NCBI GenBank assembly: GCA_038049695.1
Contig: CP142459.1
Coordinates: 69,432,001 to 69,496,000, forward strand
Source of the DNA: Cinnamomum chago
Lineage: Eukaryota; Streptophyta; Magnoliopsida; Laurales; Lauraceae
Direction of reading: 5' to 3'
Length of the DNA stretch: 64,000 bases
The notes beneath the pieces were generated by a model, which saw nothing but the letters and a program-made list of their open reading frames with translations, ran no database searches and was not told where the DNA came from. The translations under genes and the position numbers were made by a program. This document shows positions 391-28,787 of this stretch, piece after piece; the first letter of the stretch is position 1; every line of letters begins with the position of its first letter.

Positions 391-3300
391 ATGGACAAGA
401 GTTGGATTGATTTACCGAATAGGATGTCTCGGGAATACATGGAGGGGATTAACCAGTTTATGGAATTTACCAATGGGTTTGACAATGAGTTCATCAGTTG
501 TCCATGTAGAAAATGTGCGAATCGATATTTTTACAGAAGAGAGATTGTTCGAGAGCATCTGATTCTGAATGGATTCTTGAAGGACTACAAGAACTGGATA
601 AAACATGGAGAAGAGTATGTTTCCTGTCGCAGAGAGGAAATAGATGAAATTGAGGTGGATGATATGTCAGAGGCTGATCCGATGAACGTGATGTTAAATG
701 ATATCGCGTGCGGGTTGGCACCCGAATACAGAAGTTGTGCGACTGAGGGGGCGGGTGGGAGTAATCCTCGCTCTGGTGCCGATGAAGAAGCCTTGAGATA
801 TTTTGAAATTCTAGACGATGCACAGACAGAATTGTATCCTGGATGCAATGACTTCAGTAAATTGTCCTTTATTGTTGAGTTGTTACATTTGAAGGCATTG
901 AACCTATGGTCTGACAAGTCTTTTGATATGCTCCTCCAGTTGTTGCATCGAGCGCTCCCATCCGGTGCAAAACTTGCTGAGTCCTACTATCAGGCTCGCA
1001 AGTTAACTGAAAATTTAGGCTTCACATATGAGACTCTGGATGCATGTCCGAACAATTGCATGTTGTTTAGGAATGAGAATGCCCATCTTGATAAGTGCAT
1101 TGTGTGTCAGACTTCGAGATGGAAGGAGGACGGGGTTGGTTACAATCGTCAGAATAGTTCTACAAGTGTTATCAACCATGTCAAACTTGTGGCAGTAAAG
1201 CAATTGAGATATTTCCCACTTAAGCCAAGGCTGAAGAGGCTTTTTATGTCATCAAATATTTCTAAACTGATGAGATGGCATGCCGAGAATAGCAGGGACG
1301 ATGGTAAGTTGACCCATCCAGCAGATTCCCCAGCATGGAAAGACTTCGATCGGAGGAATCCAGACTTTGCCTTGGATTGTCGCAATGTGCGGCTTGGTTT
1401 GGCTGCAGATGGTTTTAGTCCGTTCAGATCCATGACTGGGGCAAATCACAGTACGTGGCCAGTTGTTTTGGTACCTTATAATCTTCCACCATGGATGTGT
1501 ATGAAGCAACCTTTTCTGATCCTATCCACACTTATTGATGGACCAAGAGGACCAGGGGACAAGATTGATGTATATATGCAACCTCTGATAGATGAATTGA
1601 ATGAATTATGGGCTGATGGTCTGATGACATTTGATGCCGAAGGCAATGAAATGTTTAAACTCCGCGCCGCATTATTATGGACAATCAACGACTTCCCTGC
1701 GTACGCCAACTTGTCGGGTTGGAGCACAAAGGGAGAGTTTGCATGTCCTTGCTGCAATAAGGAGAAGAAGTCAACTTGGTTGAAGCACGGCAGAAAATGG
1801 GCATACACGGGTCATAGGCGCTTTCTACCTCCATTGCATAGGTTCAGGAGGGACAAAGTGTCATTTGATGGGAGTCGAGAATATGGTCCAGCACCTCGAA
1901 CAATGACGGGAGTTGACTTGTTGTCACAGCTCGAGCAGGAGCAAATACGTACTGTGTATGATTTTCAAGATTTACTGGCCCCGGTGCTGCCTTCTATTCC
2001 CGGTGCAAGTAGAAGGCGAGGTCATAATTGGAAGAAAAAAAGTATTTTCTACGATTTACCATACTGGAAAGATAACTTACTCAGGCATAACTTAGATGTT
2101 ATGCACATCGAGAAGAACGTTTGTGATAATATACTGTGGACCATTCTCGGTGCTCAGGGGAAGTCGAAGGATGGTGTCAATGCACGCCGTGACTTGGAAG
2201 AAATGGGCTTGAGAAAGCCGTTGCACTTGCAGTTGAGAGAGTCTAACAAGGCATACATGCCTCCTGCGCAGTACACGATGAGTAAAGATGAGAAAGATGT
2301 CTTCCTCTCAGTTCTGAAGGGTGTCAAGGTTCCTGATGGGTACTGTTCGAATATCGCAAAGCGTGTGAACATGAGAGAGAGAACATTACAGGGTTTGAAG
2401 AGTCATGACAATCATATTCTTATTCAACAATTACTGCCTATCTCCATACGGAATTGTTTGCCTAAGAATGTTGTAGCGCCGTTGATTGAAGTCAGTAACT
2501 TCTTCAGACAACTTTGTTCTAGAGTTCATCGAATTGATGAGTTGAATGGTTTGCAAGAGAGGATTGCTGTGACGTTGTGTCATTTAGAAAAAATTTTCCC
2601 ACCTGCATTTTTCGATGTCATGGTTCACTTGACCATACACTTAACCAGTGAAGCCCTGCTTGGTGGCCCTGTCCAATTCAGATGGATGTATCCGATCGAG
2701 GGGTATATGAACACATTGAAGAGATATGTTCGCAATAGAGCTCGTCCGGAGGCATCGATAGCAAAGGGGTATCTGATGGATGAGTGCACAAATTTCTGCG
2801 CAGCATATCTTAAAGAGAATATTGAAACAAGATTAACTAGGCCCTCGCGGATTAATGATGGTCCAGTTGGGGAGGGCACGCCATTTGATCTCAACAATAT
2901 TGAGTGGATTCAAGCTCACCGGTGGGTGTTGTTCAACACCCCATCTGTTGTGGCTTTCACTCAGTAAGTGATCACTCATGCTTACGTGTAACTTGTCAGT
3001 TTTTTGCCTAAAACATCACACTTGTCGTTAACACGTATTATGTATCGCAGGACACACATTGATGAGCTGAAACGGGACATGCCTCATGCTACAGAGAATG
3101 AAATTCATCAGTCTCATTACCAGTCATTTCATGAATGGTTCAAGAATCACGTATGTACTCAATCATTAGGAGTAGTTTCACTTGTTCTTGTCATATTACT
3201 TTCATGTAGTGATATTCACTGATTACATGCATTGCGTAGGTATGTAGCTTACGAAGAACCAACGATCCGTATTTGACTGATGAAATGAACCAGTTAGCTG

Positions 3301-3851
3301 ATGGCCCATTTATAACGGCCCGACGTTACACAACTTGTGATGTCAACGACTTTCGATTTCGCATCAAGGATGTAGATGAGAAACGAGCGACGCAAAATAG
3401 TGGGCTCGGTTGTCCATCCGTCGATGCTGGTTACTATTATGGCCGGTTGAAAGATATTGTTGAAGTTGTGTATAATCACGGGCTAAAGTTTCTATTGTTT
3501 AAGTGTGATTGGGTGGATCCCATCCGAGGGGTGAAAACAGATAATTACCAGTTTACATTGGTAAATTTTAACAATTTGTTACACCGTGATGATCGAATAA
3601 GTGCCGAACCGTACATACTGTCCTCAATGGCTGAGCAAGTTTACTATGTCAGAGATCCGAAAGATCCTAACTGGCAGGTTGCAGTTAAAATGTCAAGGAG
3701 GGGAGTGTATCAGATTGAATGTGATGAGCCAGATATTGATGCATTCGCCCAACAAGAACTTGACCAGAATACAGTTGTTCAACATGATGAAGATATTAAT
3801 TGGGTTCGGGAAACGATTGAAGGAGATACAGTTGACTTACATGACCAATAA
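391..3851 (+). CDS. CACTA TNP2-like transposase, three exons
   Basis: Predicted exons are 391-2963, 3051-3150 and 3240-3851, with GT/AG borders and continuous frame, giving about 1094 residues. The start MDKSWIDLPNR is the usual N terminus of the transposase-associated domain (residues about 2-78, with a CPCRKCAN cysteine motif). The Transposase_21/TNP2 core covers roughly residues 140-500 and includes NDFPAYANLSGW and a CPCC pair; MHIEKNVCDN follows near residue 571. A DUF4218 block lies at about 680-800 and DUF4216 in exon 3 at about 950-1035. In this family the protein cuts and joins the element ends in the nucleus. No stop or frameshift was found, so it may be functional. Splice sites are inferred from frame continuity and consensus, not from transcripts. 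Confidence 0.9.
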
Positions 3852-3960: not shown

Positions 3961-6900
3961 ATGGCAGGACGAAAGAGGAGAGATCGTCCGCTGACGATGG
4001 ACGAGCTGCTGCGCCAGGCCAGCGGACCGTCTGGGGAGCCTAGACCGGCACCAGATGCCGCCCAGTCTAGTTCATCCACTCCAGTGGATGCTTCAGTGGA
4101 TGCTTCGGCGTCGTCCAGTGTTGCAGCTCCACCATCTTCAGCACCACCATCAGCAGATACACTGACTGGTATAAGTTTATTTAATGAAAACATTTTAATT
4201 CTAGCAAATTATTTTATTTCAATTTAATTAGATTATCTCGAATTTAAACAGGTGCTACGAGCACGGGCCCATCTTCCAGCAGGGGGAGAGGCCCTGCTAG
4301 AGGGATCCGGACATGGAATTCCGGCCATCCCATAGATGTACAGTTCGATGAGACATATCATCCGGTGGGCCCTCATGCTCGCCAGCTCATTAGCCAGTTA
4401 GGACATATGGTCCGGGATCCATATGCATTTCCTTTGACCACACTCGATTGGGAGGCATTCCCGGTGGCGACGCTAGATCGTACATGGCAGCAGGTCAAGG
4501 TAATAATTTAACATTTCTCCTCAGGATGTGTCAATTTAAACCATAACTTAATGAAAAATAATTTGTCAATGAAAAATTATTTGTCCTTTTCAGGATAATT
4601 TGAGGGCCTGTCCCGAGCTCTTCCGGCCAGTTTGCATGTCGAAGTGCCGGAAGATGTGGACGGATCATAAAAACAAAATAAAGACGCAGCACTGGAGGCC
4701 TCATCAGGATGCGCCTGACATACTTGAGCGAGTTCCGACTGGCGTTCTTCCTGATCAGTGGGCTCAGCTCGTCGGGTACTGGACGAGCGAGGAGGCTCAG
4801 GTGAGAAACTTGTGCTTTCTTTATTTTAATTTTAACATTTTACTAATAACTAACGTAACTAACAAAAATTCCGACTGATAAATATTGAAAACAGAGAGTG
4901 TCTGCTACGAATGCGCGGAACCGCGCATTGCAGGGTCCTGCACATAGGTTGGGGACTCGACACATCACCCAGGTCCGCCACGAGGTAAAAAGTTAGATCG
5001 TACATTTAATTTATGTTTTTGTCATTCTGTATGATAGTATACTAGTAATACATTTCTCCACCAAACAGTTGCGTTCCGAGGGTGTTCCGGTGGATAGGAT
5101 GTCCATCTGGATGCGTTCTCGAGATCCTCGCCACCCAGATGTTGCAGCTATCTTCGTAAGTTTTTATATTGAACTGTTTAAATTATGTTTCTATTAGTAT
5201 GTCTTGTTATGCATGATAATATACTAAATGAATGAACTACGCAGGCCCAGTATCAGTCACGCCTCGAGGAGTTACCCGAGGAGGAGCGCGCTTTGCCATC
5301 GCGGAGGGATGAGATATTCCAGTCCGTCGTTGGCCGGGATGGGCATGGATACACGCTGACGTTTGGGACGGGCATTCCACGCTCTCACATCACGCGATCA
5401 GAGTCATCCGGTGCTAGCTCCTCCCAGGGCATACGCTTTCGTACGGATGAGGAGGTTCAGGAGTTGCTGACTTCCATGAGGGCATCGATCAGAGAGGACC
5501 TCAGGGCGGAGATGAGGGCCGAGTGGAGAGCGGAGATGGCAGAGCTTGAGAGTCGTCTATCACAGAGTCGCGCCCTGCTTGCTTCAGACACACCACCCAC
5601 TACTCAGGTTAGTAAGAAAAAAAATTTGTACGTATAAATTGTCAATTATGTCTTTGATGCATCAATACTTATGTCTTTTTTATTGTTTTTAACTGTATAA
5701 TAAATAATTTCAGGCACCTGACGCTGGCAGCGGCCACAGGGCTAGACATGACTTCGGTGGAGAGGGCAGTCATGATCCAGCAGGCTCGACTGATCCTGAC
5801 CAGGTATAATTATTTGTTTTTTAATTCAATATTTTAATTAGCCTCTGTATACAATCACCGAACAAACGGGCTCCGGTGAGTTACATTCATCCATTAATAA
5901 TATAAGAGAAGTTCCCACATTTTTTGATGAATCCAAGAACATAGTAACCAAGCAAATCTACAAGAAATATAAGCAGGTAACTAGTTTTATGAAAACTATC
6001 GGATGGAAGGTATTATAGCCATTCCTGTAAGAGTAATTTCTGTGGTGGTTAACAGTTGGAATGTATGCTTGATAAAGTCATAACTTTGACTCAACTATAT
6101 TGATTTAGTTGACAGCAGTCACTTGAGAATATATTATCTATCAAGATGATGTGTTTTTTGATGCCCTCACATTTTGATGGGTTGACACATTTCTATCCAT
6201 AACTGACCATTCTCAACTTCGCTGATGCATTTGATTCAAGACTTCCAATAATTGAATGAGGGTGGCTTGAGTTTTATTATATTTTTTATATTTGGGTTTT
6301 TCTTTGAATGATATATGGGAACTAAAGGTGCTTTGGTAATTTTAATGGTCACTCCATCTCTCATGTGATAGTCTCAGCTGTCCTCTTTTTTGTGCAAACT
6401 CTGTAATTTGAACTCCATATATATGGGATTTCTTCACCCAACTACTTACAAGGATTTTCTTTTCTGAACTATCCTTCTTGAAAAGAGATTGGTTGGGATT
6501 TCCCAATGCAACTGCTTGAGAGTTGAGACCCCAAGTTACATGTGTAAGCTGTAAACTATCCACATGCTGAACTTCATACTCTTCTTATCCCCCCCCCACC
6601 CCACCCTTCTATTAGACATTTGCATTTGACTCGCATTGTTATTAAAAACTGTGCATTTTTTCTCTGAGTTTTCTTGCAAGATCTGAGTTACCTATTCACA
6701 ATAAACATTGATCATGGTTCAGAGCTCCGACTTATGTGATAATGGCCTTGATCATTTTTTTTTCAGGGATTTATTTGAGCAGGCGGAACCAGATATGCCT
6801 CATTCCATCAATGTGACTCCGGAAGAGCAGGAGGCAATTGAAAGAGTATGCATGTCTTCCTCTCATGGAATTTTCCCCAGTTCTAGCATTTTGACATTAC

Positions 6901-9900
6901 CTAATACATTTAGTTACTGTTTATAGTTTGAAGCAATGGGGTTTGACAGAGCCCTTGTCATTGAAGCATTCTTAGCCTGTGATAGGAATGAAGAATTGGC
7001 AGTAAACTATTTACTAGAGCATGCTGGTGACTATGAAGATTGACAGGTAAATGACATTTGCAATTACCATCTCTTCATCCTATTATTTTTTTGAATATTG
7101 AAAATTTCTCATTTGGATATTTAATTTAATCATGACTTGCAGCACTCTTCATCAATTGTGGACAGGCAATTCGTATTTCCTTTTGTTTCTTGGAGTATTT
7201 AAGTTTGTTCAGACTTGTGTGTCTGAATGATTTTGTTTTCTCGGCTGAAGGTCGTTGACTGCCGTGTGTGTGGGGATCCAAACTCTGTTCTTCGTTTTGC
7301 TTTTATAGAGTTTACTGATGAAGGTAATATTTGATACTTACATGGTTGGCTGGTGTACATGTGTATGAGTATTCTATGTTATGCTTGCAGCCAATAGTCA
7401 ATAATCTAAATGGGTTTTGATACTCCAGAAGGTGCAAGGGCTGCTTTGAGCCTGGCAGAAACAATGCTAGGACACTACCCAGTAAGAGTGCTGCCTTCAA
7501 AAACTGCAATGGCAAGAGAATGGTAGGAACAGATATGAAGTCAGGTGGTAATTATTTGGACTTTGAGTTCTTCAAAATTTTGGAATTGTGGATTATTAGT
7601 TGCTGTAATAGTATATGATCAGTTACATGAGTGTGTATTGCTCAATGTTTTTAGTGCAAGCAGTGCCTGACTTATGGAAGCTAATGTCCAGTTCCTGTTT
7701 GATCAATTATTACATGTTGAGCTGGCAAATGTGTGTGTGAGGGTCTGGGAGTATGAGGAATGGTAGGACTACATGAAGGTTAAAGGTTGTCCCATCTTCC
7801 AGTTATCCAGATTGTTCATCCTGTGGAAATTAATACCATGGATATACAATGAAATCCAGAAAATTCCAAACCAAACAATTGTAGCCATCTGATAATTGGC
7901 CTCCAAATATAGTTAGAAGAAGAAAGGAGCCAAGCTCAAACTTGGCTTATTTTCACTTTTACTGAGCTCGAGCTTGGAATTGGCTTGTCTTCCTCATACA
8001 CATACATTTTATGTATAATGAGCAGAGCTTGCACTTGAACTTGGGCTGATATATAATGTTACCTTGACAGAGCTAGCTTGAGCCAAGCCTTTAATTCAGT
8101 TGATTTTGAGCCAAGTCAAGCTGAAGAGGCCCTAGCTCAAGCTCAACTTGTATAGTTCTCAAGCCAAGAGCTCAGTTTGATAAAAACAAATGGATGCTAA
8201 AACTTGCATGTTCAATTGAAGGACTTCTACAGAACTTAGATGGATGGGTGTCAATTGTTTTTTAGTGCTAATTTGCATAGGCAAGGTAATTGGGTGTGAA
8301 GGACATAGATTGATCAGGGATCCAGGTGGGTCCCACAGTCCTTTGTAAGGGGCTGGACATTACTGATAATTTGCTATATATCTTGATAGGATCATCAAAA
8401 GCTCTTTCTGATACATTCGTATATTATTCAACTGGATTTGATCTGAAGCGTGTGGTTTAAGCTAAGAATCTGTCCGTTGCAAATGTACCTTTTCCAGGGA
8501 TGGAAGGAATGGAGAAGTCCGAGACATGCAATTGGACGAGGACCACGATTTATGCTATACTTTGCTGAGAAAAGAAGACCACGATTGTATGTTTTCTTCT
8601 GTTTCTGTTTGTTTTTTTTTTCCCCTGAAATGTTTTTGTTTCTGTTCGACAATGGAAATTAACGATCTAGATTCTTTCTTTTCAATTAAGTGACAATTGC
8701 AGGTGGCAATTTTTCTGCTGGTTTGTCTTGTTCTAGCTGGAGCTTGGTTGGGTTTTTGGGGTGTTCGCAGACTTGTTCTTATAGAGGATGGATCTGTTGA
8801 CATAAGTATAGCTCAATTTGTTCAGTGGTCTATCCGGATTTTTGCCGCTGCTATGGTCCTTCAGGTACTCGCATGCTCATTCTATGTTTGGATCCTTACC
8901 GTTCTTGGAGATTAGAATCTCTCTCAATTTGTTAAGCTTCCATTATCTGCTTTATATTTACGAATAAGGTTATTGCCTAGTGGACATTACACAGAATCAC
9001 AGGTTTGTAACTGCTACAAACTTGAAAGTTCTCTTTCTTCTTTAAATGTTTGATTTGAGCAAGAATCGGTGAACTTTATTTTACATGGTGTAGGTTCAGC
9101 GCCTGAGACTTCTTGGAGGCTATCACCATTCTACTTGTATTGCTTTTGTTGAGTTTGTAATGGTCAGTATCTCTAACTCATGATGCAAACATTTTGCTAT
9201 TTACTCCTTTTTGTTTGTCTTCAAAGCTATACTTGTGTTAGATAGTGAATGTCGAAGATACTAATTGGACCTCTGTAAATGCTAACAACACAAGAAATGA
9301 CAGAAAACCCGATTCCAATAAAGGGTCAACACCCACAACCCCTATATAGAAAATCACTAGGAATAAAGCCTAACCAAAACAAAATCATATCCCAAAACTC
9401 ACTAGAATCTAATCAATGGATAAAAATCAAAATAAAAACCCTATCCCCCTAAACGATCAACACCCGCAGCGCCATATAAAAAATGAATATGAATCTCCGG
9501 GCGCCCAAAATGATTTTTGTACAGTCAGCTAAACTTAAAACTTAGAAATTGAGCCTCCGGGCGCCCAAAACGAGCAAACGGGCTCCGTTACCCGTGAAAC
9601 TTGACGGGCACGGGGCCCTTGTCATTCATGATTTGCAGGAACTGACGGAATGAGATTCTAACTTCCGAATTGCTCGTAAAGTTGAAATATAGGTTTGAGT
9701 TAGAACGTTAACTTAAAACTTAGAAAACGAGCATCCGGACGGCCAAAATGAGCAAACGGGCTCTATTGCCAGCGAAACTTGACGGACACGGGCCCCTAGT
9801 CATTCATGACTTGCAGGAACTGACGGAACGAGATTCCGACTCCCGGTTTGATCGTACAGTTGAAACGTAGGTTTGAATTAGAACGTAAACTTAAAACTTA

Positions 9901-11398
9901 GAAAACGAGCCTCCGGGCGACCAAACTGAGCAAACGGAGTCCGTTGCTCATGAAACTTGACGGGCACGGGCCTCTAGTCATTCCTGACTTGCAGGAACTG
10001 ACGGAATGAGATTCCGACTCCCGGTTTGATCGTACAGTTGAAACGTAGGTTTGAGTTAGAACGTAAACTTAAAACTTAGAAAACGAGCCTCCGGGCGACC
10101 AAACTGAGCAAACGGAGTCCGTTGCTCGTGAAACTCGACGGGCACGGGCCCCTAGTCATTCCTGACTTGCGGGAACTGACGGAACGAGATTCCGACTTCC
10201 GGTTTGATCGTACAGTTGAAAAGTAGGTTTGAGTTAGAACGTTAATTTAAAACTTAGAAAACGAGCATCCGGATGCCCAAAATGAGCAAACGGGCTCTAT
10301 TGCCAGCGAAACTTGACGGACACGGGCCCCTAGTCATTCATGACTTGCAGGAACTGACGGAACGAGATTCCGACTCCCGGTTTGATCGTACAGTTGAAAC
10401 GTAGGTTTGAGTTAGAACGTAAACTTAAAACTTAGAAAATGAGCCTCCGGGCGACCAAACTTAGCAAACGGAGTCCGTTGCTCGTGAAACTTGACGGGCA
10501 CGGGCCTCTAGTTATTCCTGACTTGCAGGAACTGACGGAATGAGATTCCGACTCCCGGTTTGATCGTACAGTTGAAATGTAGGTTTGAGTTAGAACGTAA
10601 ACTTAAAACTTAGAAAACGAGCCTCTGGGCGACCAAACTGAGCAAACGGAGTCCGTTGCTCGTGAAACTCGACGGGCACGGGCCCCTAGTCATTCCTGAC
10701 TTGCGGAAACTGACGGAACGAGATTCCGACTTCCGGTTTGATCGTACAGTTGAAAAGTAGGTTTGAGTTAGAACGTTAATTTAAAACTTAGAAAACGAGC
10801 ATCCGGACGCCCAAAATGAGCAAACGGTGTATGTTGCTCGTAAAACTTGACGGGCACGGGCCCCTAGTCATTCCTGACTTGTAGGAACTGACGGAACGAG
10901 ATTCCGACTCCCGGAATGATCGTACGGTTGAAAAGTAGGTTTGAGTTAGAACGTTAACTTAAAACTTAGAAAACGTGCATCCGGACGCCCAAAATGAGCA
11001 AACGGGGTCTGTTGGTCGTGAAACTTGAGGGGCACGGGCCCCTAGTTATTCCTGACTTGCGGGAACTGACGGAACGAGATTCCGACTCCCGGTTTGCTCG
11101 TACAGTTGAAATGTAGGTTTGAGTTAGAACGTTAACTTAAAATTTTGAAAACGAGCCTCCGGGCGACCAAAATGAGTAAACGGTGTCCGTTGCTCGTGAA
11201 ACTCGACGGGCACGGGCCCCTAGTCATTCCTGACTTACAGGAACTGACGGAACGAGATTCCGACTCCAAGATTGATGTTAATGTTGAAACATAAGTTGAA
11301 ATTTTAATTTTAATTCTTAATTTTTTATATTTAGTATAAATTGCCAATTTTTATACTAATCTTTTAATATTTATTTTTCCTTTTCTGTTCAGGTTTGA
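3961..11398 (+). CDS. second CACTA gene, Transposase_24 (Ptta/En/Spm)-like, eight exons
   Basis: Predicted exons are 3961-4168, 4252-4499, 4594-4800, 4895-4984, 5069-5155, 5245-5607, 5714-5803 and 11393-11398. All have GT/AG borders and keep frame, giving about 432 residues. The N terminus ([19 protein letters not shown]) is followed by a Ser/Pro/Ala-rich linker. A middle region (about 100-330) has Trp- and basic-rich blocks such as [11 protein letters not shown], typical of plant CACTA accessory proteins. A charged, probably coiled-coil segment lies at about 345-392 ([20 protein letters not shown]). The last exon supplies only Val and the stop, after an intron of about 5.6 kb that holds captured host exons and the 178-bp array. 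The family is thought to bind element ends; that role is inferred here. The distant last exon is the least certain part. Confidence 0.78.
5804..6766 (+). other. proximal part of the large intron, with one possible captured exon
   Basis: Most of this stretch is AT-rich and unrecognised. Bases 5885-5976 read openly ([20 protein letters not shown] within it) and end at a GTAACT donor, so they could be a captured exon of unknown origin. A short CAAACGGGCTCCG string near 5867 also occurs in the 178-bp array, suggesting the array once began near here. Confidence 0.3.
6767..7043 (+). pseudogene. RAD23: captured RAD23 3' fragment (C-terminal UBA domain)
   Basis: Two exons, 6767-6845 and 6927-7043, with consensus splice borders. 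They encode [20 protein letters not shown] and then [20 protein letters not shown], ending in HAGDYED and a stop. This is the C-terminal UBA2 region of plant RAD23, a ubiquitin receptor shuttling substrates to the proteasome and binding XPC. The upstream UBL, UBA1 and XPC-binding parts are not seen. The introns are kept, so the piece was captured as DNA, not through a processed mRNA. It lies in the sense direction within the last intron of the second CACTA gene. Any product is unlikely to be a normal RAD23. Confidence 0.88.
7251..7515 (+). pseudogene. captured fragment of a CID-type RRM protein (first RRM)
   Basis: Exon 7251-7323 encodes [20 protein letters not shown] followed by FTDE. After a GT/AG intron, 7429 onward gives [20 protein letters not shown] and LPSKTA before homology fades near 7515. 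This is the C-terminal half of the first RRM in plant CTC-interacting-domain (CID8-13-like) proteins, which bind RNA and contact poly(A)-binding protein. Phase is conserved over the intron (DE-EGARA). The left end starts exactly at an exon-like border, preceded by GAAG in place of a clean CAG acceptor. No stop lies inside the matched segments, but the gene is clearly partial. Confidence 0.85.
8498..8864 (+). pseudogene. captured exons of an unrecognised membrane protein
   Basis: Two exon-like segments, 8498-8586 (GTATGT donor) and 8703-8864 (CAG acceptor, GTACTC donor), join in frame. The first reads [17 protein letters not shown]; the second gives hydrophobic [20 protein letters not shown], a short polar stretch ([15 protein letters not shown]) and a second hydrophobic segment ([12 protein letters not shown]). 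Two membrane spans are likely. I do not recognise the gene. It lies between two pieces of the CID-type gene, in the same orientation, so it is either a separate capture or an insertion into the captured CID fragment. Confidence 0.55.
9094..9162 (+). pseudogene. captured exon of a CID-type RRM protein (second RRM)
   Basis: A single exon with TAG acceptor and GT donor encodes [20 protein letters not shown] and then FVM. This is the RNP1-side portion of the second RRM of plant CID8-13-like proteins and probably comes from the same donor gene as 7251-7515. The family usually has Arg where Cys is seen (HSTC), which points to relaxed constraint. The RRM linker and the start of RRM2 are missing. Confidence 0.8.
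9163..9489. other. unassigned intron sequence before the tandem array
   Basis: No coding similarity is visible. The string GGGTCAACACCCACA and the related GATCAACACCCGCAG occur about 120 bp apart as a weak short repeat. Confidence 0.3.
9490..11300 (+). repeat. 178-bp tandem repeat array with 534-bp higher-order period
   Basis: Anchoring on the GAGCCTCCGGGCGACC/GAGCATCCGGACG motif, units start at 9551, 9729, 9907, 10085, 10263, 10441, 10619, 10797, 10975 and 11153, each exactly 178 bp apart. A partial unit precedes and a degenerate one follows. Variants recur in threes. Units at 9729 and 10263 share GGCTCTATTGCCAGCGAAAC. Units at 9907 and 10441 share GGGCCTCTAGT. Units at 10085 and 10619 share CTCGTGAAACTCGACGGGCA. 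This gives a 534-bp higher-order repeat present about twice. The array lies in the last intron of the second CACTA gene, ending about 90 bp before its acceptor. Confidence 0.95.
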
Positions 11399-11679
11399 GA
11401 GCATCGGACATACCACGGCACCCGGCAATTTTTTTTTTCTTTTTCCTCTAAATGTAATGGATATATGTTATTGAAACTTTTGTAATTAATGTTTTGAATG
11501 AAATTAATATAAGATTTTCTTTTTTTATTTGTGATTTTAATTGATGGTAGTGGTTGTATGTTATTTGTAATTTTAATTGATGGCATGATTTGTATATACT
11601 TAGGTATAGGTACAGGTACAAATACAAGTAAATAATTTGAAAAAATAAAAAGTATTTGTTAAAAAAAAAATTGACCTTT
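11399..11679 (+). other. 3' untranslated region of the second CACTA gene (inferred)
   Basis: This AT-rich sequence follows the stop codon at 11396-11398. It contains AATGAAATTAATAT-type polyadenylation-like signals near 11500 and no coding pattern. Confidence 0.45.
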
Positions 11680-12080
11680 AGCAGCCGCCAGTGGCGGTCG
11701 CTAAAAGCGAAATTGGCGGTCGCTAATAGCATAAAAAATAAAAAAAAATAAAAAAATTCAAAATAAATACTGTATTAGCGGCCGCCAGATAGGTATTAGC
11801 GACCGCCTTGGCGGCCGCTAATACTAAAAAAATTTAAAAAAAAAATAAAAATTCGAAAAAAAAAGGGCATTAGCGACCGCTGTATAAGTATTAGCGACCG
11901 CCTTGGCGGTCGCTAAAAGTCAAAATGTTGTTTTTTTAAATTTTTTGGCGACCGTCATGTGGCGGTCGCTAATACTATTAGCGACGAGCTTTTCGCGGCC
12001 GTCGAGAGGCGGTCGCTAAAGAGTATTAGCGACCGCCAAAATACTTTTAGCGACGGCAAATGGCGGCCGCTAAAAGTCAA
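11680..12080. repeat. CACTA subterminal repeats
   Basis: About fifteen copies of a GGCGGTCGCTAA-like motif and its inverse TTAGCGACCGCC occur singly or as facing pairs separated by AT-rich spacers. In CACTA elements such subterminal repeats are binding sites for the element's DNA-binding protein. Their pairing could form hairpins. Confidence 0.9.
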
Positions 12081-12093
12081 TTTTCTAGTAGTG
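12081..12093 (-). repeat. CACTA right terminal inverted repeat
   Basis: TTTTCTAGTAGTG, whose reverse complement is CACTACTAGAAAA, is the canonical start of a plant CACTA element. Copia LTR sequence begins at the next base. Confidence 0.93.
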
Positions 12094-12541
12094 GGACCAC
12101 AAGTCCTTTCCTTTCTAGAAGTGTGGTCATTATAGGAATTCCGTTTTCATAGGATACATATGCTATAATTACTCAAAACGGTTTCCTAATGAGATAGTTT
12201 CCTTAATATTCTCTACCTTGATGGACGGTTGAGATTAAGTCTAAAGTAAACCTAATTGGGAATTCGGTCCTCTCTCCACCTATAAATATAGCCTTTGGTC
12301 CATCACAAAGGCTACACACAAAACCTCAATACATTAAGGTTTATAGGCAAGGAGAAAGAAACCGAAACCATTCACCAGCCTCTTCTTCGACGGATCTCAA
12401 CAACAGGGCCAGACAGCAGGATCAGAAAGCTCTCTGCATCAGAATGTCTGGAGGTACTCTTCAACTTATTTAAGATTGAATCCTATATGTGATTATCATG
12501 CTGTTCTCGATCTTAGGGTTCATGTTAATAATGGTATAACA
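12094..12541 (+). repeat. 5' LTR of copia 1, lacking its first 30 bp
   Basis: Matches 19642-20076 and ends in TATAACA before the primer site. It has an extra 13 bp near 12310 relative to the 3' LTR, plus scattered substitutions, so it is not a very recent insertion. Confidence 0.93.
12281..12288 (+). promoter_or_regulatory. TATA box in the LTR of copia 1
   Basis: TATAAATA lies about 160 bp upstream of the proposed gag start ATG in the same LTR. It is conserved in the 3' LTR at 19829-19836. Confidence 0.6.
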
Positions 12542-13926
12542 TGTGGTATCAGAGACAAGTTTTAGAACACATGATCATCCATTAATTAGGGTAATTTTTG
12601 CATCGCCATAATCGGCAAATATAGATTCGTTTTTTTTTTTTTTTTTTTTACACTGTTTTGCAAAATTTTACCGATCAAACTTTTATGGCCTGCATGAATG
12701 GTTTAGATTTATGTTATTCCGCAATTTCAATTTAACCACAACTGTATGATCGTGATTTATTTAAAGTTCTGTTTTTTTTTTATTATTCTGCATAAAAACC
12801 CTGCGTAAGTTCAAAAAAAAAAAAAAAAAAAAAAGAGCCGTCGGACAGCCCTCCGGGGCTCGGCCTCTTTATCAGTACTTTTTATATATGGAATGATCTA
12901 TCATGAATGCATGCAACATATAATGTTTATGTTCATATTAAGCTAATTATGATCACCAAAGTTTTATGCTTAGGGTTAGGTCTCACCACAGTGACCCTAA
13001 CAATTAAACACTGATATTTGGCCATAATAGTACCATCATAATGTTTACATTACATATTATTCAAACGCATGAAACATTCAATCACCCACAGGCGGATTAT
13101 ATTCATACGTTTGAACAATAATTAAGGAGTGTTTGTTCATAATTAAGAGTAACATCACTCATTAGCACCACCTTGAATATGACGACCTTAGATGGTATAA
13201 TGTGTAGAAATTATGGTGACTACCCACAGGAGCACCTAAATTTTATGTCGTATATATTCTTATCTTATGCATGTGTTGTCTTAATTTTAATTGGAGCCTT
13301 ATTGTTGTTTCTCTATTACAGTTATTGTACCCACTAATCTGAATTCGCATGCTACCTCTGTCACTAAGCTCAATGGAACTAACTTCTCAGAATGGAAAGA
13401 ACAAGTTGAGTTCACATTGGGGGTACTTGAACTGGATATGGCTCTTCTTAAAGATAAGCCAGCTGCACTCATTGAAACAAGTACCCCTGAGGAAAAGGCA
13501 CTCTTCAATGCTTGGGAGAGGTCTGACAGACTAAGCACTATGTTTTTGCGAATGACTATTGCCAACAACATCAAAACATCCCTTCCTAAAACTGAGAATG
13601 CTAAGGACTATATGAAGGCCATTGAAGATAGGTTTAAGACTGCAGACAAATCCCTTGCTGGGACACTAATGGCAGATCTTACAACCATGAAGTTTGATGG
13701 CACTCGCTCAATGCACGAGCATGTCATTGAGATGACCAACCTTGCTGCTAAACTTAAGAATTTGGGATTATCAGTGGATGAGGCTTTTCTCGTCCAATTT
13801 ATCCTAAATAGTTTACCTCCTCAGTACGGGCCTTTCCAAATTCACTACAACACTATTACGGACAAGTGGACAGTGAATGAATTGGCTAACAAACTGGTTC
13901 AAGAGGAGGCCAGGCTGAATCAATAA
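12444..13926 (+). pseudogene. gag: copia 1 gag, with possible spliced start inside the LTR
   Basis: The gag body starts at about 13322 and runs to a TAA at 13924. It holds a UBN2-type gag domain (LNGTNFSEWKEQVEFTLGV early on). No ATG sits at the natural N terminus. The LTR has ATGTCTGGAG at 12444-12453 followed by GT, and the gag body is preceded by CTATTACAG. Splicing 12454-13321 out would give MSGVIVPTNL in frame. The stop is followed by continuous frame into the zinc knuckle, so it is probably a nonsense mutation and not a natural gag end. The intron proposal is inference. Confidence 0.75.
12544..12557 (+). other. primer-binding site of copia 1
   Basis: TGGTATCAGAGAC, two bases after the 5' LTR, is complementary to the 3' end of initiator tRNA-Met as in most plant copia elements. 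Confidence 0.85.
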
Positions 13927-15990
13927 GGTATTAAAGTAGCTCATCTCATTCAAGGAGCTGGACATAAAGCTGGGAAAAAGAATAATTCAGGCCAGAAAAG
14001 GGCACCACCCAGACCTAATGAGGCTAGTCAGAACCCCAAGAAGAAAAAGAAGGAAGACATATGCAGATTTTGCAAGAAACCTGGACATTTTCAGGCAAAC
14101 TGCACTAAACGTAAAGAATGGTTCGAAAAGAAAGGTAACCCTATGGGTTTCGTAAGTTATTTAGAGTCAAATCTTACTTATGTTTCTTCTGATACTTGGT
14201 GGATTGACACTGGTGCTAATGTTCATGTTTCCAATTCAATGCAGGGATTCCTTACGATCCAAACCATAAACCCAAGTGAGAACTTTCTTTTTATGGGGAA
14301 CAAAGACAAAGCTCCAGTTGAAGCTATTGGCACTTTTCGTCTTGTTTTAGATAGCGGTTATCAGTTAGATTTATGTCAAACTCTTTATGTTCCGTCTATT
14401 TCTCGTAATTTGGTTTCTGTAAGTGCACTTGATAAAGTTGGTTATTCGTTTGAAGTAGGAAATGGTAATTTCAGTTTATTTAAAGATTCTAGTCGCATTG
14501 GTTCTGGAATATTGATTGACGGGCTATACAAGTTTCATCTTAATAGTCCATTTACTGAAACCCATCTTACCCTGCATTCTAAGGAAACAAAACGAAAGTC
14601 ATCTAAAAATGACTCTTATTTCTTGTGGCATAAAAGAGTGGGTCACATATCCAGTGAAAGAATCAAACGATTAGTAAAAGATGGTGTCCTTCCGGATCTA
14701 GATTTTACTAATATTACAGTATGTGTGGATTGTATTAAAGGCAAAACAACACGACACACAAAGAAAGGAGCCACAAGAAGTACTCAGCTTCTTGAAATAA
14801 TTCATACAGACATTTACGGACCTTTTGATGTTCCAACCTTTGGGGGAGAAAAGTACTTCATTACCTTTATTGATGATTACTCACGTTACTGTTACCTATA
14901 CTTGTTGCATGACAAATCTCAGTCTGTGAATGCTGTACAAGTGTTCATTACTGAAGAAGAAAGGCAACTAGATAGAAAAGTGAAAATCATAAGGTCAGAT
15001 AGAGGTGGTGAGTTTTATGGTAGGTATGATGAAACAGGACAACATCCTGGACCTTTTGCAAAACTCCTCCAAAAGCTTGGAATTGTTGCCCAATACACAA
15101 CGCCTGGTTCTCCATGGCAGAATGGTGTAGCTGAAAGGCGAAATCGTACATACATGAAAATGGTTAGATCCATGATGAGTCATGCCAACTTACCTATATC
15201 CTTTTAGAAGGATGCTCTACGCACAACTGTTTATATCTTGAATAGGGTTCCCAGTAAGGCAGTTCCAAAGACACCTTTTGAACTGTGGAAAGGGTGGAAA
15301 CCTAGTTTAAGACATCTCCAAATTTGGGGTTGCCCAGCTGAGGCTAGAATCTACAACCCACATGAAAAGAAATTGGACCTTAAAACAATCAGTGGTTACT
15401 TTATAGGTTACCCAGAAAAGTCCAAAGGATTTAGGTTTTACTGCCCTAACCATAGTACAAGAATTGTTGAAACCGGTAATGCTAGATTCTTTGAAAATGG
15501 TGAAATCAGTGGGAGTAATAAAACTAAAGATGTGATCATTCAGGAAATCAGGGTACCTATCCCTTTACCCTTCATTCCGAAAGATGTTGGAAATCCTCCC
15601 GTTGTTGAACCCTTTAACAATGAGGAAAATCCAATAAATGATCAACAACTCCATAATGAGATTGTCACCAATGAACATATGGATGAAGCACCAGAGGGGC
15701 CAGCATTAAGAAGGTCTCAAAGACAAAGGAGATCAGCTATTTCCGATGATTACATGCTTTACCAAGTAGAATCTGAAGAAGGGACAATTAAAGACCCGGT
15801 TTCTTATTCACAGGCCATTAAGGATGTTAATTCTAGTAAATGGATTGATGCCATGAAGGATGAATTGAAACCTATGGATGAAAATCAAGTATGGGAAGTT
15901 GTTCAATTGCCTCCAGGACACAAACCAGTTGGTTGTAAATGGGTCTTCAAGACCAAACGCGGCTGCAAAGGCAATATTGAACGACATAAC
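13927..15990 (+). pseudogene. pol: copia 1 zinc knuckle, protease, integrase and start of reverse transcriptase
   Basis: A CCHC knuckle (CRFCKKPGHFQANC) starts near 14062. The protease motif WWIDTGANVHVS follows near 14200. The integrase has a pre-integrase HHCC region (HKRVGHIS ... CVDC) and the DDE blocks HTDIYGPF, RSDRGGEF and NGVAERRNRT. A TAG at 15205-15207 interrupts the integrase where the family usually has Trp. The frame then continues to the reverse transcriptase start (KWVFKTK), where a single-base frameshift near 15985-15995 ends the reading. Confidence 0.9.
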
Positions 15991-16473
15991 CCAGACTTGT
16001 TGCCAAAGGTTTTAATCAGAAAGAAGGCATTGATTATACTGAGACTTTTTCTCCTGTGTCCAGGAAGGATTCTCTTAGAATTATCATGGCATTAGTAGCT
16101 CACTATGACCTCGAGTTACATCAAATGGATGTGAAAACTGCATTTCTTAATGGATACTTGGAAGAAGAAGTCTACACGCGTCAACCTGAAGGCTTCATAA
16201 TTGAAGGTCAGGAAGACATGGTCTGCAAACTTAAGAAATCAATATATGGACTGAAGCAAGCTTTGAGGCAATGGTATCTAAAGTTTCATGAAATCATTAC
16301 TGCCTTCGATTTCAAAGAAAACATAGTTGACCCTTGCATATATCTCAAGATCAGTGGGAGTAAGTTCATATTTTTGGTTCTGTATGTTGATGACATATTA
16401 TTGGCTAGCAGCGACCTTGGTCTGTTACATGAGACAAAGGATTATCTCTTTAAGAACTTTGAAATGAAAGATA
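15991..16473 (+). pseudogene. pol: copia 1 reverse transcriptase, central part
   Basis: The shifted frame encodes the catalytic palm blocks: MDVKTAFLNGYLEEEVYT, LKKSIYGLKQALRQWY and the active-site YVDDILLASSD. It ends at EMKD, where the solo LTR begins. The coding sequence resumes at 18328 with the same glycine-containing block (DMGEASYVIG). Confidence 0.9.
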
Positions 16474-18327
16474 TGTTAGGTATTTTGTAATTGCAATTTG
16501 ATGGATGCATTTGCACTTTAGCATCATTTGAATTCTCACACTTGCATTGTTTTAGAAGACCTTGAAATCTGCTATTTTACATGCATAGCTTTTAAGATTT
16601 GGAAAAGCTTTTGTTTTATGCATGTTTTGGTTTTAAACTTGGATGCATTAGTTTTGAAACTCAAACTCTTTTGAAAACCTAATTCATTGTGCATTATATT
16701 TGGAAAATCATCTTGTCTATTTAGGTTTGAACTTTGCATACATACATCCCTTCAAAATCATATTTGTATGCATTTTTTTGAAAAAGGAGTTTTTAGAAAT
16801 CAAGCTAGCCTATGGTTTAAAGTTTTGAATCATTTTAGGCTTTGTGTGTTTCATGTTTTTATACATCTTTGAATGTTTTAAAACATGTGAAAAAGCTTGA
16901 TTTTAATGGCCCAAAAGATCCCCAAAGAAAATCTTCAAAAACCCAAAAAATGGGAAATTCTGGGCAGGCCCGGTCAACCGGCCAAACTGGCGGTTAACCG
17001 GACTGCTGAGGCTTCAACGGGCATTTTTATGACCGTTGTGCTTGGCCAGTTAACCTGCCTGTCATGGCCGGTCAACCGGGGATATAGCCGTTGGGCTGTT
17101 TTGGGGATATAAATGAGTTCTTTCCTTTGTCTTTGGTTGGAGATTTTGAAACCCTCTTTGAGGAGCTTTGAGAGAAGACAAAGGGGATGATCTAAGAGAC
17201 ATCAAAGGGTCATTAAGTAAAGCTTAAGCTTGGATCAACTAAGTTAAATCTCCAAGTAAGTTTTATTTTTAATTAATCATTTGTTATGTGCTTTATTTGA
17301 AACTTTGGAAAATGATTTCAAGCATGATAACAATGATGTGTTGAATCCTTTCTTCCCTCCATCTTTGATATTCAAGATTGGATTCATCACTTTGATTTCA
17401 ACCCAAGTTTTGTTTTAAACTTTCTTAATCATGCTTAGCCATAAATCTTTGATTTCCTTTATTGCATGATTACTTCACTTGGTTGAAACTTCCCTTGTTG
17501 TTTTCATTCATTTAATCTTTAGTCAAATTAGTTTTTGAAAACAACATTGCACATGCATCACTTGATTAGGCTTAAACACTTTCATACAACTTGTGATCTT
17601 TAGATTTTCATATCATTCACAAGTGTGTAATTGTTCAAGTGATTTGCATAGAACTTCAATCATATCTTTTTGTGTCTTAAACTTTCAAATTGCATTAAGC
17701 ATAAATTGATTGAGCTTACTTTTAAACTTGATTGAAGTTTTCACACACACACTTCATAAGCATACATCTTTGCATTCATTGAGTGTTTGTGTGAGTTAGG
17801 ATTTTCATTTTCATATCCGCCTATTTAGAGGCAATTTATTTGAGCTTAAATTGTAATCTCTTAGAGTGTTGAGTAAACACTTTCTTAGAGAAATATTGAT
17901 TTGTAAGGTTATTGCTTAGCCTAAGAAAAGCATTGTGTAAGGTTATTGCTTAGCCTAAGAAAAGCATTTTGTAAAGGTTATTGCTTAGCCTCTAAAAGCA
18001 CATTGAGAGGTTGTTGTTTAGCCTTGAAAAGCAACATTGTAAGGGTTATTGCTTAGCCTAGTAAAAAGCATAAATAGTGGAAATCCGGTGGGGTGTTGGA
18101 TACACAAGCCGGTAGTGGATGTAGGCACGTTGGCCGAACCACTATAAATATTGTGTTGTGGTGATTGCAATGTGGTGTTTGTTTTTGTATTAGCTTCCGC
18201 ATATTGTATGACAATTCATCACATGTGACTAGTTTAGTTTGAGAAATTAAAATTGGTCTAAATTGGTCATAGTTGTAGCTCACCCTATTCACCCCCCCTC
18301 TAGGGTTAGGATCCTCGTGGACTTTCA
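16474..18327 (+). mobile_element. solo LTR (1854 bp) inside copia 1
   Basis: The insert begins TGTTAGGTATTTTG and ends GGACTTTCA. It is flanked on both sides by AGATA (16469-16473 and 18328-18332), a perfect 5-bp target duplication that splits a reverse-transcriptase codon. There is no internal coding region, primer site or second LTR, so it is a solo LTR formed by LTR-LTR recombination. The string ATTCACCCCCCCTCTAGG near the 3' end resembles LTRs of the SIRE/Maximus copia group, and a GATATAAATGAG TATA-like site lies near 17105. Lineage is a guess from that string. Confidence 0.92.
17905..18072 (+). repeat. minisatellite inside the solo LTR
   Basis: Five imperfect copies of a unit of about 35-40 bp centred on GGTTATTGCTTAGCCTAAGA, with GAAAAGCA tails. 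Confidence 0.85.
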
Positions 18328-19222
18328 AGATATGGGTGAGGCTTCCTATGTGATAGGAATAGAAATATTCCGTGACAGGTCACTTGGTATTTTGGGATTG
18401 TCTCAGCAAGCATATATTGACAAAGTTTTAGAGAGATTTGGCATGATGACATGTTCTTCTAGTCCTGTTCCACTGCATAAAGGAGACAAGCTTGATCTTA
18501 CGCAGTGTCCACAGAACGAATTGGAACGTAAAGAAATGGAAAAATATCCTTATGCTTCTCTTGTAGGAAGTTTGATGTATGCACAGGTCTGTACAAGACC
18601 TGACATTAGTCATGTTATTGGCATGCTAGGTAGATTTCAAAGTAACCCAGGAATCGCTCATTGGAAAGCTGCAAAGAAAGTACTGAGATACCTCAAGGGA
18701 ACAAGGAAGTATATGCTCACATACAGAAAATCAAGTCACCTACAGGTGACTGGTTATTCCGATTCAGATTTTGCTGGATGTCCTGACACCAGACTCTGCA
18801 CTCTCGGCTATGTGTATCTCTTATGTGGAGGAGCAATATCATGGAAAAGCCAGAAATCAGAGTTGCTTTACACATCCACCATGATGGTTGAATATGTGGC
18901 ATGTTATGAGGCTGCAATTCAAGGAACATGGTTGCGTAATTTTATCACTCAGTTTGGAGCCTTGAGTTTTATCTCTAAGCCATTAACTATTTACTGTGAT
19001 AATGATGCTGCAACCTTCTTCTCTAAGCATGACAGGATATCTAAGGGATCCAAACACATGGACCTTAAATATCTATCACTGAAGCAAGATGTTAGACTAC
19101 AAGAATTTGTCATTGAGTCTATACGTACAGGTTTCATGGTCGTAGACATATTCACGAAAGGACTACCTCCAAAGACCTTTCAAGGACATACTGAAAGCAT
19201 GGGTCTTCAAGATAGTTCTTAA
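18328..19222 (+). pseudogene. pol: copia 1 reverse transcriptase end and RNase H
   Basis: Continues the copia pol frame downstream of the solo LTR. It has LMYAQVCTRPDISHVIGMLG, the RNase H start YSDSDFAGCPD, a later YCDNDAA block and the usual terminal FTKGLPPKTFQGH. The stop is at 19220. The frame is open throughout this part. Confidence 0.93.
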
Positions 19223-19611
19223 TTATCATTTTCTGCCTTTTTATTTCTGTACTTGTATTTGACATTTATTGAGCTCTTAATGCAACTCTACATCTACTAT
19301 TTCTGTTTTTCCATTGTGTACATAATTATGTTTGGATAAATGATAAACAGAAACAGTCTTTAAACAAAGACATTATGGGACCATTATGTAAATCTCATCT
19401 TATGGTCTAGTTATGACGGTTGTAAATGACGTGGTACATGGAAGTAAACATGTTGCAAAATAATATGTGCACGCCATGACTCCCATTAACAACCGAATTA
19501 GCCAAGACACTTATGATAACCGACTAAAGCAGTGTTTAGCATATAATGCGCGCCTTATGATCCCTAAAAATGAAAACATTAATGGATCTTCCTATTGACC
19601 AAGTGGGAGAC

Positions 19612-20076
19612 TGTAAGGAAATTATTTTAGGCCCATTACTTGGACCACAAGTCCTTTCCTTTCTAGAAGTGTGGTCATTATAGGAATTCCGTTTTCATAG
19701 GATACATATGCTATAATTACTCAAAACGGTTTCCTAATGAGATAGTTTCCTTAATATTCTCTACCTTGATGGACGGTTGAGATTAAGTCTAAAGTAAACC
19801 TAATTGGGAATTCGGTCCTCTCTCCACCTATAAATATAGCCTTTGGTCCATCACAAAACCTCAACACATTAAGGTTTATAGGCAAGGAGAGAGAAACCGA
19901 AACCATTCACCAGCCTCTTCTTCGACGGATCTCAACAACAGGGCCAGACAGCAGGATCAGAAAGCTCTCTACATTAGAATGTCTGGAGGTACTCTTCAAC
20001 TTATTTAAGATTGAATCCTATATGTGATTATCATGCTGTTCTCGATCTTAGGGTTCATGTTAATAATGGTATAACA
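19612..20076 (+). repeat. 3' LTR of copia 1 (465 bp)
   Basis: Starts TGTAAGGAAATTA after a purine-rich tract (AAGTGGGAGAC) and ends TATAACA. It contains the same ATGTCTGGAG|GT and TATA box as the 5' LTR. Confidence 0.95.
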
Positions 20077-20289
20077 TACCTTTCTTGATTCCCTAACCAG
20101 GTATGATCAATCACTCATCTATATTTTTACAATATTCATATTACAGAGTAACTTTGAAAGAGCACAGAGAAACTGACAAACGGCGACATGCAAATTCGAA
20201 GCATGCACTAGTTGTATTACAAGAAAGGAGCAACCATACGTTGTAAAAATACAATACAATACATTAATACCATAGGAAAAAGATGGGAA

Positions 20290-27618: not shown

Positions 27619-27850
27619 ATTAGAAGGGAGAAAAGAAGAAGAAGAATGGCAGCAGAGGTACTCACTAGTGTAGAAGACACCGTAGCAGTGGATATGGAAG
27701 CTGACAGTGTGAGTAGCAGCTCTTCCGCCATTTCTGATGATGATGGAGAGAAAGCCCATAACTCTTTCAAGAGGAAGGATCTGAATCCAAACTGGGTATC
27801 TTCAATCAAAGGAAGGAGTCTTGTTGAGCCAAGAAGATTAAAAGCATCAT

Positions 27851-28787
27851 CTGCTAGCAAATCATGCTCAATCCACCGAGTCCCTTCCTGGCTTAGTGGC
27901 TGTGCTGTCGCCGGTACCTAAATATAATAAAATCTTTACTCCAAAAATAATAAATGTAGTAGTGCGAGTAAGGATCGTTCCCTCGAAGAGTGTCTAACCA
28001 AATTTTATGCTATGTGATCAAAGATGGGGGTTTTGATTATACTGGAAGCAAAAACAAATAAAGAGCAATAAAGTAACGAATTCAATCAAATGGGTAAGCA
28101 TTGGTCAAAGTTAACATCCACCATCGGAAATTCAGAACTGATCATTGATGCAAAAATAAATCAATTAACACTTTGAATATTCATCGTTAGAATTAAATTC
28201 CTACCTCCCTAATTAATTAATTAGAAAACACGCGTTCTAATTAACCCTAATTACTAAACAACGTAAGACAAGCGCTATAGATTTAATTTAGTAAAAGCAT
28301 TAAAATCAAAGAGATCGATCTGCTAGCAAATCATGCTCAATCCACCGAGTCCCTTCCTGGCTTAGTGGCTGTGCTGTCGCCGGTACCTAAATATAATAAA
28401 ATCTTTACTCCAAAAATAATAAATGTATAGTGCGAGTAAGGATCGTTCCCTCGGAGAGTGTCTAACCAAGTTTTATGCTATGTGATCAAAGATGAGGGTT
28501 TTGATTATACTGGAAGCAAAAACAAATAAAGAGCAATAAAGTAACGAATTCAATCAAATGGGTAAGCATTGGTCAAAGTTAACATCCACCATCGGAAATT
28601 CAGAACTGATCATTGATGCAAAAATAAATCAATTAACACTTTGAATATTCATCGTTAGAATTAAATTCCTACCTCCCTAATTAATTAATTAGAAAACACG
28701 CGTTCTAATTAACCGTAATTACTAAACAACGTAAGACAAGCGTTATAGATTTAATTTAGTAAAAGCATTAAAATCAGAGAGATCGAT
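27851..28787 (+). repeat. 469-bp tandem duplication across a gene/solo-LTR junction
   Basis: 27851-28319 is repeated at 28320-28787 with only a few changes. Each copy contains 46 bp of the DUF247 coding sequence, the CTTAG target site and the first part of the LTR. The duplication must therefore postdate the insertion. Confidence 0.95.

Follow-up and report, generated by a model that had tools for sequence, protein, structure and literature searches.

The mechanism by which plant terminal inverted repeat (TIR) transposons capture host genes is unsettled. In soybean, the CACTA element Tgm-Express1 of the wp allele spans 5.7 kb and carries five unrelated host gene fragments between Tgm ends, and these fragments are spliced into chimeric transcripts according to its abstract (PMC1947982). 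The same 2007 abstract describes the capture mechanism as little known (PMC1947982). A 2026 review, in the section cited here, offers a hybrid-element model for Pack-CACTAs (PMC13317346), and gap filling/FoSTeST has been called worth exploring for plant Pack-MULEs (PMC8277862). Here we analyze a 64,000-nucleotide stretch of the Cinnamomum chago genome (C9:69432001-69496000, hereafter the window) and the CACTA element that overlaps its start. By alignment, the last intron of the second gene of this element, open reading frame 2 (ORF2), carries pieces of unrelated host genes, captured as DNA, whose separate donors lie in the same genome. The assembly searched comprises 1.06 Gb in 14 contigs. Positions are those of the window, C numbers denote contigs, and L numbers denote the loci that were compared.

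Host gene fragments in the last ORF2 intron

Four main donors contributed to the intron (Table 1). The RAD23, CID, kinase and NEMP pieces each match a separate locus at 95.9-98.9% identity over 227-1043 aligned bases. The RAD23 fragment differs from its donor at 24 of 1035 aligned bases (97.7% identity) and encodes a UBA domain (Pfam PF00627, E 3e-11); the donor locus has XPC-binding and UBA exons. An RRM (PF00076, E 2.1e-19) was found in the CID fragment when it was taken uninterrupted from copy L030, and the CID donor carries a PAM2 motif. The kinase donor has a Pkinase domain in Pfam and is presumably of the AGC type. The NEMP donor lies near C2:101.12 Mb (L045), with a further NEMP exon 4.4 kb upstream. 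The captured NEMP exon matches PF10225 with E 8.3e-6 and 26.1 bits, slightly below the curated family cut-off of 28.7.

These results can be set against a preliminary description made from the sequence of the window. It had placed a RAD23 UBA, CID RRMs and a membrane-protein exon in the intron in one orientation and in the order RAD23, CID RRM1, membrane protein, CID RRM2, and the Pfam matches confirm this arrangement. It had also proposed capture at the DNA level with introns kept, which is borne out by the non-exon sequence of the RAD23, CID and NEMP pieces: this sequence matches the donors at 95-100%. The description was right that several genes had contributed, but its count of three donors was too low, having overlooked the C-terminus and 3' end of a kinase gene between CID RRM1 and NEMP. 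The membrane protein it noticed is NEMP, with an exon at 8703-8864 and not at 8498-8587. The latter interval is ruled out as a membrane-protein exon; positions 8175-8578 are the 3' flank of the kinase gene on C6, and a short filler comes next.

Near the start of the intron lies a scrap of two joined pieces resembling an RNA-dependent RNA polymerase (RDR) gene. RDRs are a class of enzymes that act in transposon silencing. The candidate donor is C1:89826300-89827800 (L061), about 300 bp of which is skipped by the scrap. The donor was named from a weak PDB match to RDR2 (E 0.21), and the two pieces searched in Pfam gave no match. The RDR-like exon has 82 genomic matches: 78 at 94% identity or above, of which not every one was checked for membership in the family, and four weak ones that include the RDR-like donor. 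This weakly identified scrap is the one common to the widest set of copies.

All eight identified fragments are in sense (RDR-like, RAD23, CID, kinase and NEMP, together with receptor kinase, GH31 and AAA fragments of related copies; two-sided P 0.008), a tally limited to these eight and drawn mostly from reading the sense strand, which favors a sense result. A Pfam search of seven open reading frames, from both strands of three unidentified segments, matched none of the seven.

Table 1. Features of the element and its cargo in window coordinates; the exon limits of the transposase gene and ORF2 are our own assignment.
Feature	Position	Strand	Details
CACTA (En/Spm) element	-3918 to 12093		16.0 kb; start = C9:69428082
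TnpD-type transposase gene	391..3851	+	three assumed exons, 391-2963, 3051-3150 and 3240-3851; open for 1094 codons
ORF2 exons 1-7	3961..5803	+	predicted protein 432 aa; Pfam Transposase_24, E 3.3e-18
Last ORF2 intron (cargo site)	5804..11392	+	GT...AG ends, phase 0
RDR-like scrap	5905..5983	+	two joined pieces of 22 bp and 59 bp; 100% and 98.3% to L061
RAD23 fragment	6105..7140	+	intron, last two exons (6768-6845 and 6927-7043, UBA), start of 3' end
CID-type RRM1 fragment with introns	7136..7514	+	98.9% to CID gene L059 (C3)
Protein-kinase gene C-terminus and 3' end, part 1	7506..7732	+	98.2% to L058 (C6)
Stretch between the two kinase parts	7733..8174		genome search matched own family and weak diverged loci
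Kinase locus 3' flank, part 2	8175..8578	+	98.3% to L058
Filler GACCACGATT	8577..8586	+	repeats 8541-8550; 8579-8582 match neither parent there
NEMP fragment	8583..9003	+	matches L045-L057; exon 8703-8864, phase 0-0
CID RRM2 fragment	9001..9308	+	98.7% to L059; exon 9094-9162, phase 0-0
178-bp tandem array	9532..11289	+	within last ORF2 intron, 3' of cargo
Subterminal inverted repeats and 3' TIR	11667..12093		CACTACTAGAAAATT on minus strand

Related copies, junctions and divergence

We searched the assembly with the DNA of positions 5804-9540. Of 133 candidates, 40 were scored, and 103 matches were returned; the copy counts below are lower bounds. The whole stretch occurs at six or more places, window included; the copies are 99-100% alike, with 6-16 pairwise differences over about 3,737 bases. 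On these alignments, the recurrence of the cargo and its donor matches are far above chance.

Other copies carry different arrangements. At least six loci (L015-L019 and the split copy L025) have a 309-bp receptor-kinase piece and a shortened NEMP. A receptor-kinase exon is found in at least two loci, at C5:13.56 Mb and C4:5.04 Mb. In the first of these (L033), the piece bearing the exon (L033 5657-6286) is inserted at 7785-7787, within the stretch that separates the two kinase parts. A shortened RAD23 occurs in at least 12 loci, and all three that were compared (L026, which equals L031 at C11:8.75 Mb, L027 and L028) continue with the same GH31-exon stretch. The GH31 glycosidase exons of these shortened copies come after pieces of RAD23, CID and kinase. 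In L030, NEMP precedes one uninterrupted 1.6-kb CID piece that is split in the window, and at least 10 loci share matches with L030. L022 joins RAD23 straight to the 178-bp array, and L056 has NEMP without CID. A longer NEMP stretch occurs in at least 11 loci, one of which (L047, C1:117.50 Mb), when read onward, reaches an AAA-ATPase exon that we take to be of the 26S proteasome subunit type. The comparison identifies the cassette as a mosaic common to related elements and reshuffled among them, rather than a set of captures made by the window copy alone. L060 (C3:112.268 Mb) has two copies of the ORF2 exon 7 end within 590-1110; they lie about 270 bp apart, and about 230 bp of the gap is array sequence. 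This repeat perhaps reflects backward template switching inside the element.

Adjoining fragments share short overlaps. In the window these are CT at RAD23/CID, GCAAT at CID/kinase, AGG at NEMP/CID and AAAAC at CID/element; relatives show AGA, CTT and CT. For the seven junctions with both parents known, overlaps of 2, 5, 3, 5, 3, 3 and 2 bp sum to 23, where 5.1 would be expected (a simple null of independent sites gives P 3.6e-6; copy L056 was taken as the second parent of the CID/element junction). This sum leaves out kinase/NEMP (-4), the RAD23/array junction of L022 and two filler edges for which anchoring failed. Adding the L022 junction, scored as 1 bp by the script, gives 24 over eight junctions (P 5.7e-6 under the same null).

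Some junctions also contain short sequences with a recognizable source. We read GACCACGATT at the kinase/NEMP junction as templated filler. The 15-bp TTTTTTGTGCAAACT follows the receptor-kinase piece of L015; it also occurs at 6386, within the RAD23 intron, but in none of the four loci in which it was sought (L058, L059, L045 and L047). The 12-mer CATGACTTGCAG at the RAD23/CID junction (7131-7142) recurs twice in the array (9805 and 10339) but is absent from both strands of the two fetched parent loci, RAD23 and CID. A crude estimate puts the chance of the array match at 5e-4. The simplest account would have RAD23 joined to the array at the outset, an arrangement seen in L022, before a template switch took synthesis from the array to CID.

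Divergence from the donors varies among the fragments. Differences number 14/343 for NEMP, 24/1035 for RAD23, 11/631 for kinase and 8/687 for CID. NEMP is the most and CID the least diverged (P 0.005 for this pair), with RAD23 and kinase between them. The NEMP substitutions are nested: eight sites separate all 13 compared transposon copies from the gene, three are shared only by the window and L056, and three are found in the window alone. This pattern fits a single NEMP capture followed by inheritance. The CID 3' breakpoint is identical in the window and L030, and the NEMP 3' breakpoint is identical in copies where its neighbors differ. From these shared breakpoints it would seem that existing cargo of the family was reassembled into the window cassette.

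Ends, setting and genes of the element

The ends and genes identify the element as CACTA (En/Spm): it has CACTA-type ends, a Transposase_21 gene and a second gene in the TnpA position. Its 5' end reads CACTACAAGAG, the TIRs start with CACTA, and the 3' TIR at 12079-12093 is CACTACTAGAAAATT when read on the minus strand. Where a CACTA element would be expected to leave a 3-bp target site duplication, the sequence reads CTTGGATC on the left and GGACC on the right, in a copia long terminal repeat (LTR), and can be taken as GGA plus two extra bases or as 5 bp with one change. The copia element consists of 12094-20077 and DNA upstream of window -3918; its right LTR starts at 19612, and the CACTA element is inserted in its left LTR, about 35 bp from the start. 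Elsewhere in the window, a tandem duplication of about 468 bp lies at 27849-28727, with copies 99-100% identical.

Pfam assigns Transposase_21 (E 6.7e-94), DUF4218 and Transpos_assoc domains to the transposase. Openness of this gene was assessed in the window copy and in L062, where it is also open and differs from the window copy at 11 of 3461 bases; the region compared for the C7 copy, L063, covers window -3369 to 171. We take ORF2, with its Transposase_24 domain, to be the TnpA equivalent. Its exons 3-7 are stop-free in 12 of 12 loci checked, window copy included, and its last exon (11393-11398) codes for valine and a stop.

Origin of the cargo and comparison with known systems

We consider it probable that this coding-capable element of about 16 kb acquired its cargo by serial capture, through template switching during repair within the intron, and that the cargo then spread and was reshuffled among copies. 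A break or excision gap would arise in the last ORF2 intron, and repair would begin. Repair synthesis, whether by gap repair, polymerase-theta-type joining or fork switching, would copy host DNA, with microhomology guiding repeated template switches between host loci and the element. Captures would occur one at a time, and fragments would also pass between elements. The intron site and sense orientation would allow the cargo to be spliced out, and the element would keep its genes. We favor this account because the donors are separate, introns are kept, overlaps are 2-5 bp, fillers are present, relatives vary, the NEMP sites are nested and the reading frames are open.

The fragments adjoin in a single orientation, as they would if one host locus in which they were already joined had been swallowed whole, and nothing else favors that explanation. 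The preliminary description had opposed several separate captures to one contiguous host locus. Its preference for the former holds: the RAD23, CID, kinase and NEMP donors lie on C4 (L029), C3 (L059), C6 (L058) and C2 (L045), each embedded in more of its own gene, and relatives carry the cargo in other orders. Donors on four different contigs contradict single-locus capture, barring an unassembled host locus that contains the joined fragments, and we give it almost no credence. Entry of retrocopies of spliced transcripts is likewise scarcely credible. The RDR-like scrap skips part of its donor, as such an origin might predict, but apparent coding sequence flanks the skip on both sides. RNA-level capture is ruled out for the main fragments because their introns match the donors; outside the exons too, the RAD23, CID and NEMP pieces align with their donors at the identities given above. 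Under the hybrid model put forward for Arabidopsis Pack-CACTAs (PMC13317346), DNA becomes trapped between neighboring elements that excise aberrantly and carry complementary end deletions. Such an origin is improbable for the present cargo, which is internal to an intron of an element that keeps both ends and both genes, and which comes from several contigs with fillers repeated from inside the element.

We also think it unlikely that the captured exons were kept because they are spliced into ORF2 as a useful fusion. One predicted path does remain in frame, from 5803 through 8703-8864 and 9094-9162 to 11393, linking ORF2, the NEMP exon, the CID RRM2 exon and the valine-stop exon, and all eight identified fragments are in sense. 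Another predicted path, from 5803 to 7251, continues through 7323/7429 and ends at a stop just beyond the kinase join. Against a useful fusion, the predicted splice from 5803 to RAD23 at 6767 meets a stop after three codons. In CID, conservation is no greater in exons than elsewhere (4/187 exon against 0/192 other differences, and 2/69 against 2/239). The RAD23 exons are slightly better conserved (1/195 against 23/840, P 0.066), which is suggestive only.

Several observations weigh against serial template switching. The kinase/NEMP junction has an insert and no overlap, and the script gave no score for the two edges of the filler itself. The script, which anchored in another array unit, scored the RAD23/array overlap in L022 as 1 bp; comparison by eye with the 9982 unit gives 5 bp. 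It may be that L022 is no intermediate and that its join arose later, by deletion across the 12-bp repeat. The genome search with DNA yielded no donor for 7733-8174, only family copies and weak matches of 69-87% to parts of it. For the receptor-kinase exon of L033, 150 of 1388 candidates were scored, and the best match among them outside the family reaches 69% identity at the protein level; the donor of this receptor-like kinase exon may be lost, unassembled or unscored. Finally, RAD23 and CID do not differ significantly in divergence (P 0.10), which leaves the sequence of captures established only in part.

A bolder extension of serial template switching is possible, though we hold it to be doubtful: an autonomous CACTA lineage may use its last ORF2 intron as a standing cargo bay, in which breaks are repaired from host templates, insertions are tolerated in sense only, so as to permit their removal by splicing, and phase-matched cargo exons, here NEMP and CID RRM2, are sometimes spliced into ORF2. 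If this is true, a working transposon would continually make and spread new exon combinations with its own genes intact.

Multi-gene capture by CACTA elements, with introns and chimeric splicing, is already known, as is stepwise capture in Helitrons. A limited literature search found no report of serial capture into the ORF2 intron of a coding CACTA element with a junction-level history. The accounts cited below are compared on the passages drawn on here. Chenopodium CACTA-like elements resemble the window element in having transposase-associated domains, captured fragments and 3' satellite arrays, and cargo in a coding CACTA element is therefore not new in itself (PMC8978399). Their captures are not within the coding sequence but in the 5' region, and no multi-donor mosaic or junction history is described there (PMC8978399). 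Pack-CACTA and other Pack-TYPE elements hold host coding DNA between CACTA ends, as here, but are non-autonomous by definition, and elements with transposase matches are classed apart (PMC8903248, PMC13317346). The window element likewise has host gene fragments between its ends. Pack-TYPE elements lack a functional transposase gene, and we do not class the window element among them because its transposase and ORF2 both read as open.

The Tpn1 family of Ipomoea nil is of the En/Spm type, with hundreds of copies, captured host genic sequence and chimeric transcripts; its captures are described in non-autonomous copies with replaced interiors, and copies coding for TnpA and TnpD are separate (PMC5105172). 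CACTA elements of wheat chromosome 3B show 140 captures, exon shuffling and recent exchange of captured DNA between two families, whereas junction-level history and an intron site are absent from the description cited (PMC4290129). Maize Helitrons gained fragments from different chromosomes stepwise, as inferred from related copies, but they are not TIR elements and the cited account gives no filler-level trace (PMC3288121). Animal Pack-TIRs, for which gap filling/FoSTeST was proposed, show breakpoint microhomology (median 2 bp) and template switching; those elements are from animals, and the authors left plant Pack-MULEs open (PMC8277862).

Tgm-Express1 shares with the window element its CACTA type, multiple unrelated host fragments, and retained exons and introns (PMC1947982). 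Unlike Tgm-Express1 as described in that abstract, the window element is 16 kb long, with open transposase and ORF2 frames, cargo in one ORF2 intron and many related copies. In this family, junctions with both parents, sourced fillers, possible intermediates and nested copies are found in one assembly, which allows rival models of capture to be compared base by base. The family also suggests how an element may carry host DNA and yet retain its transposase.

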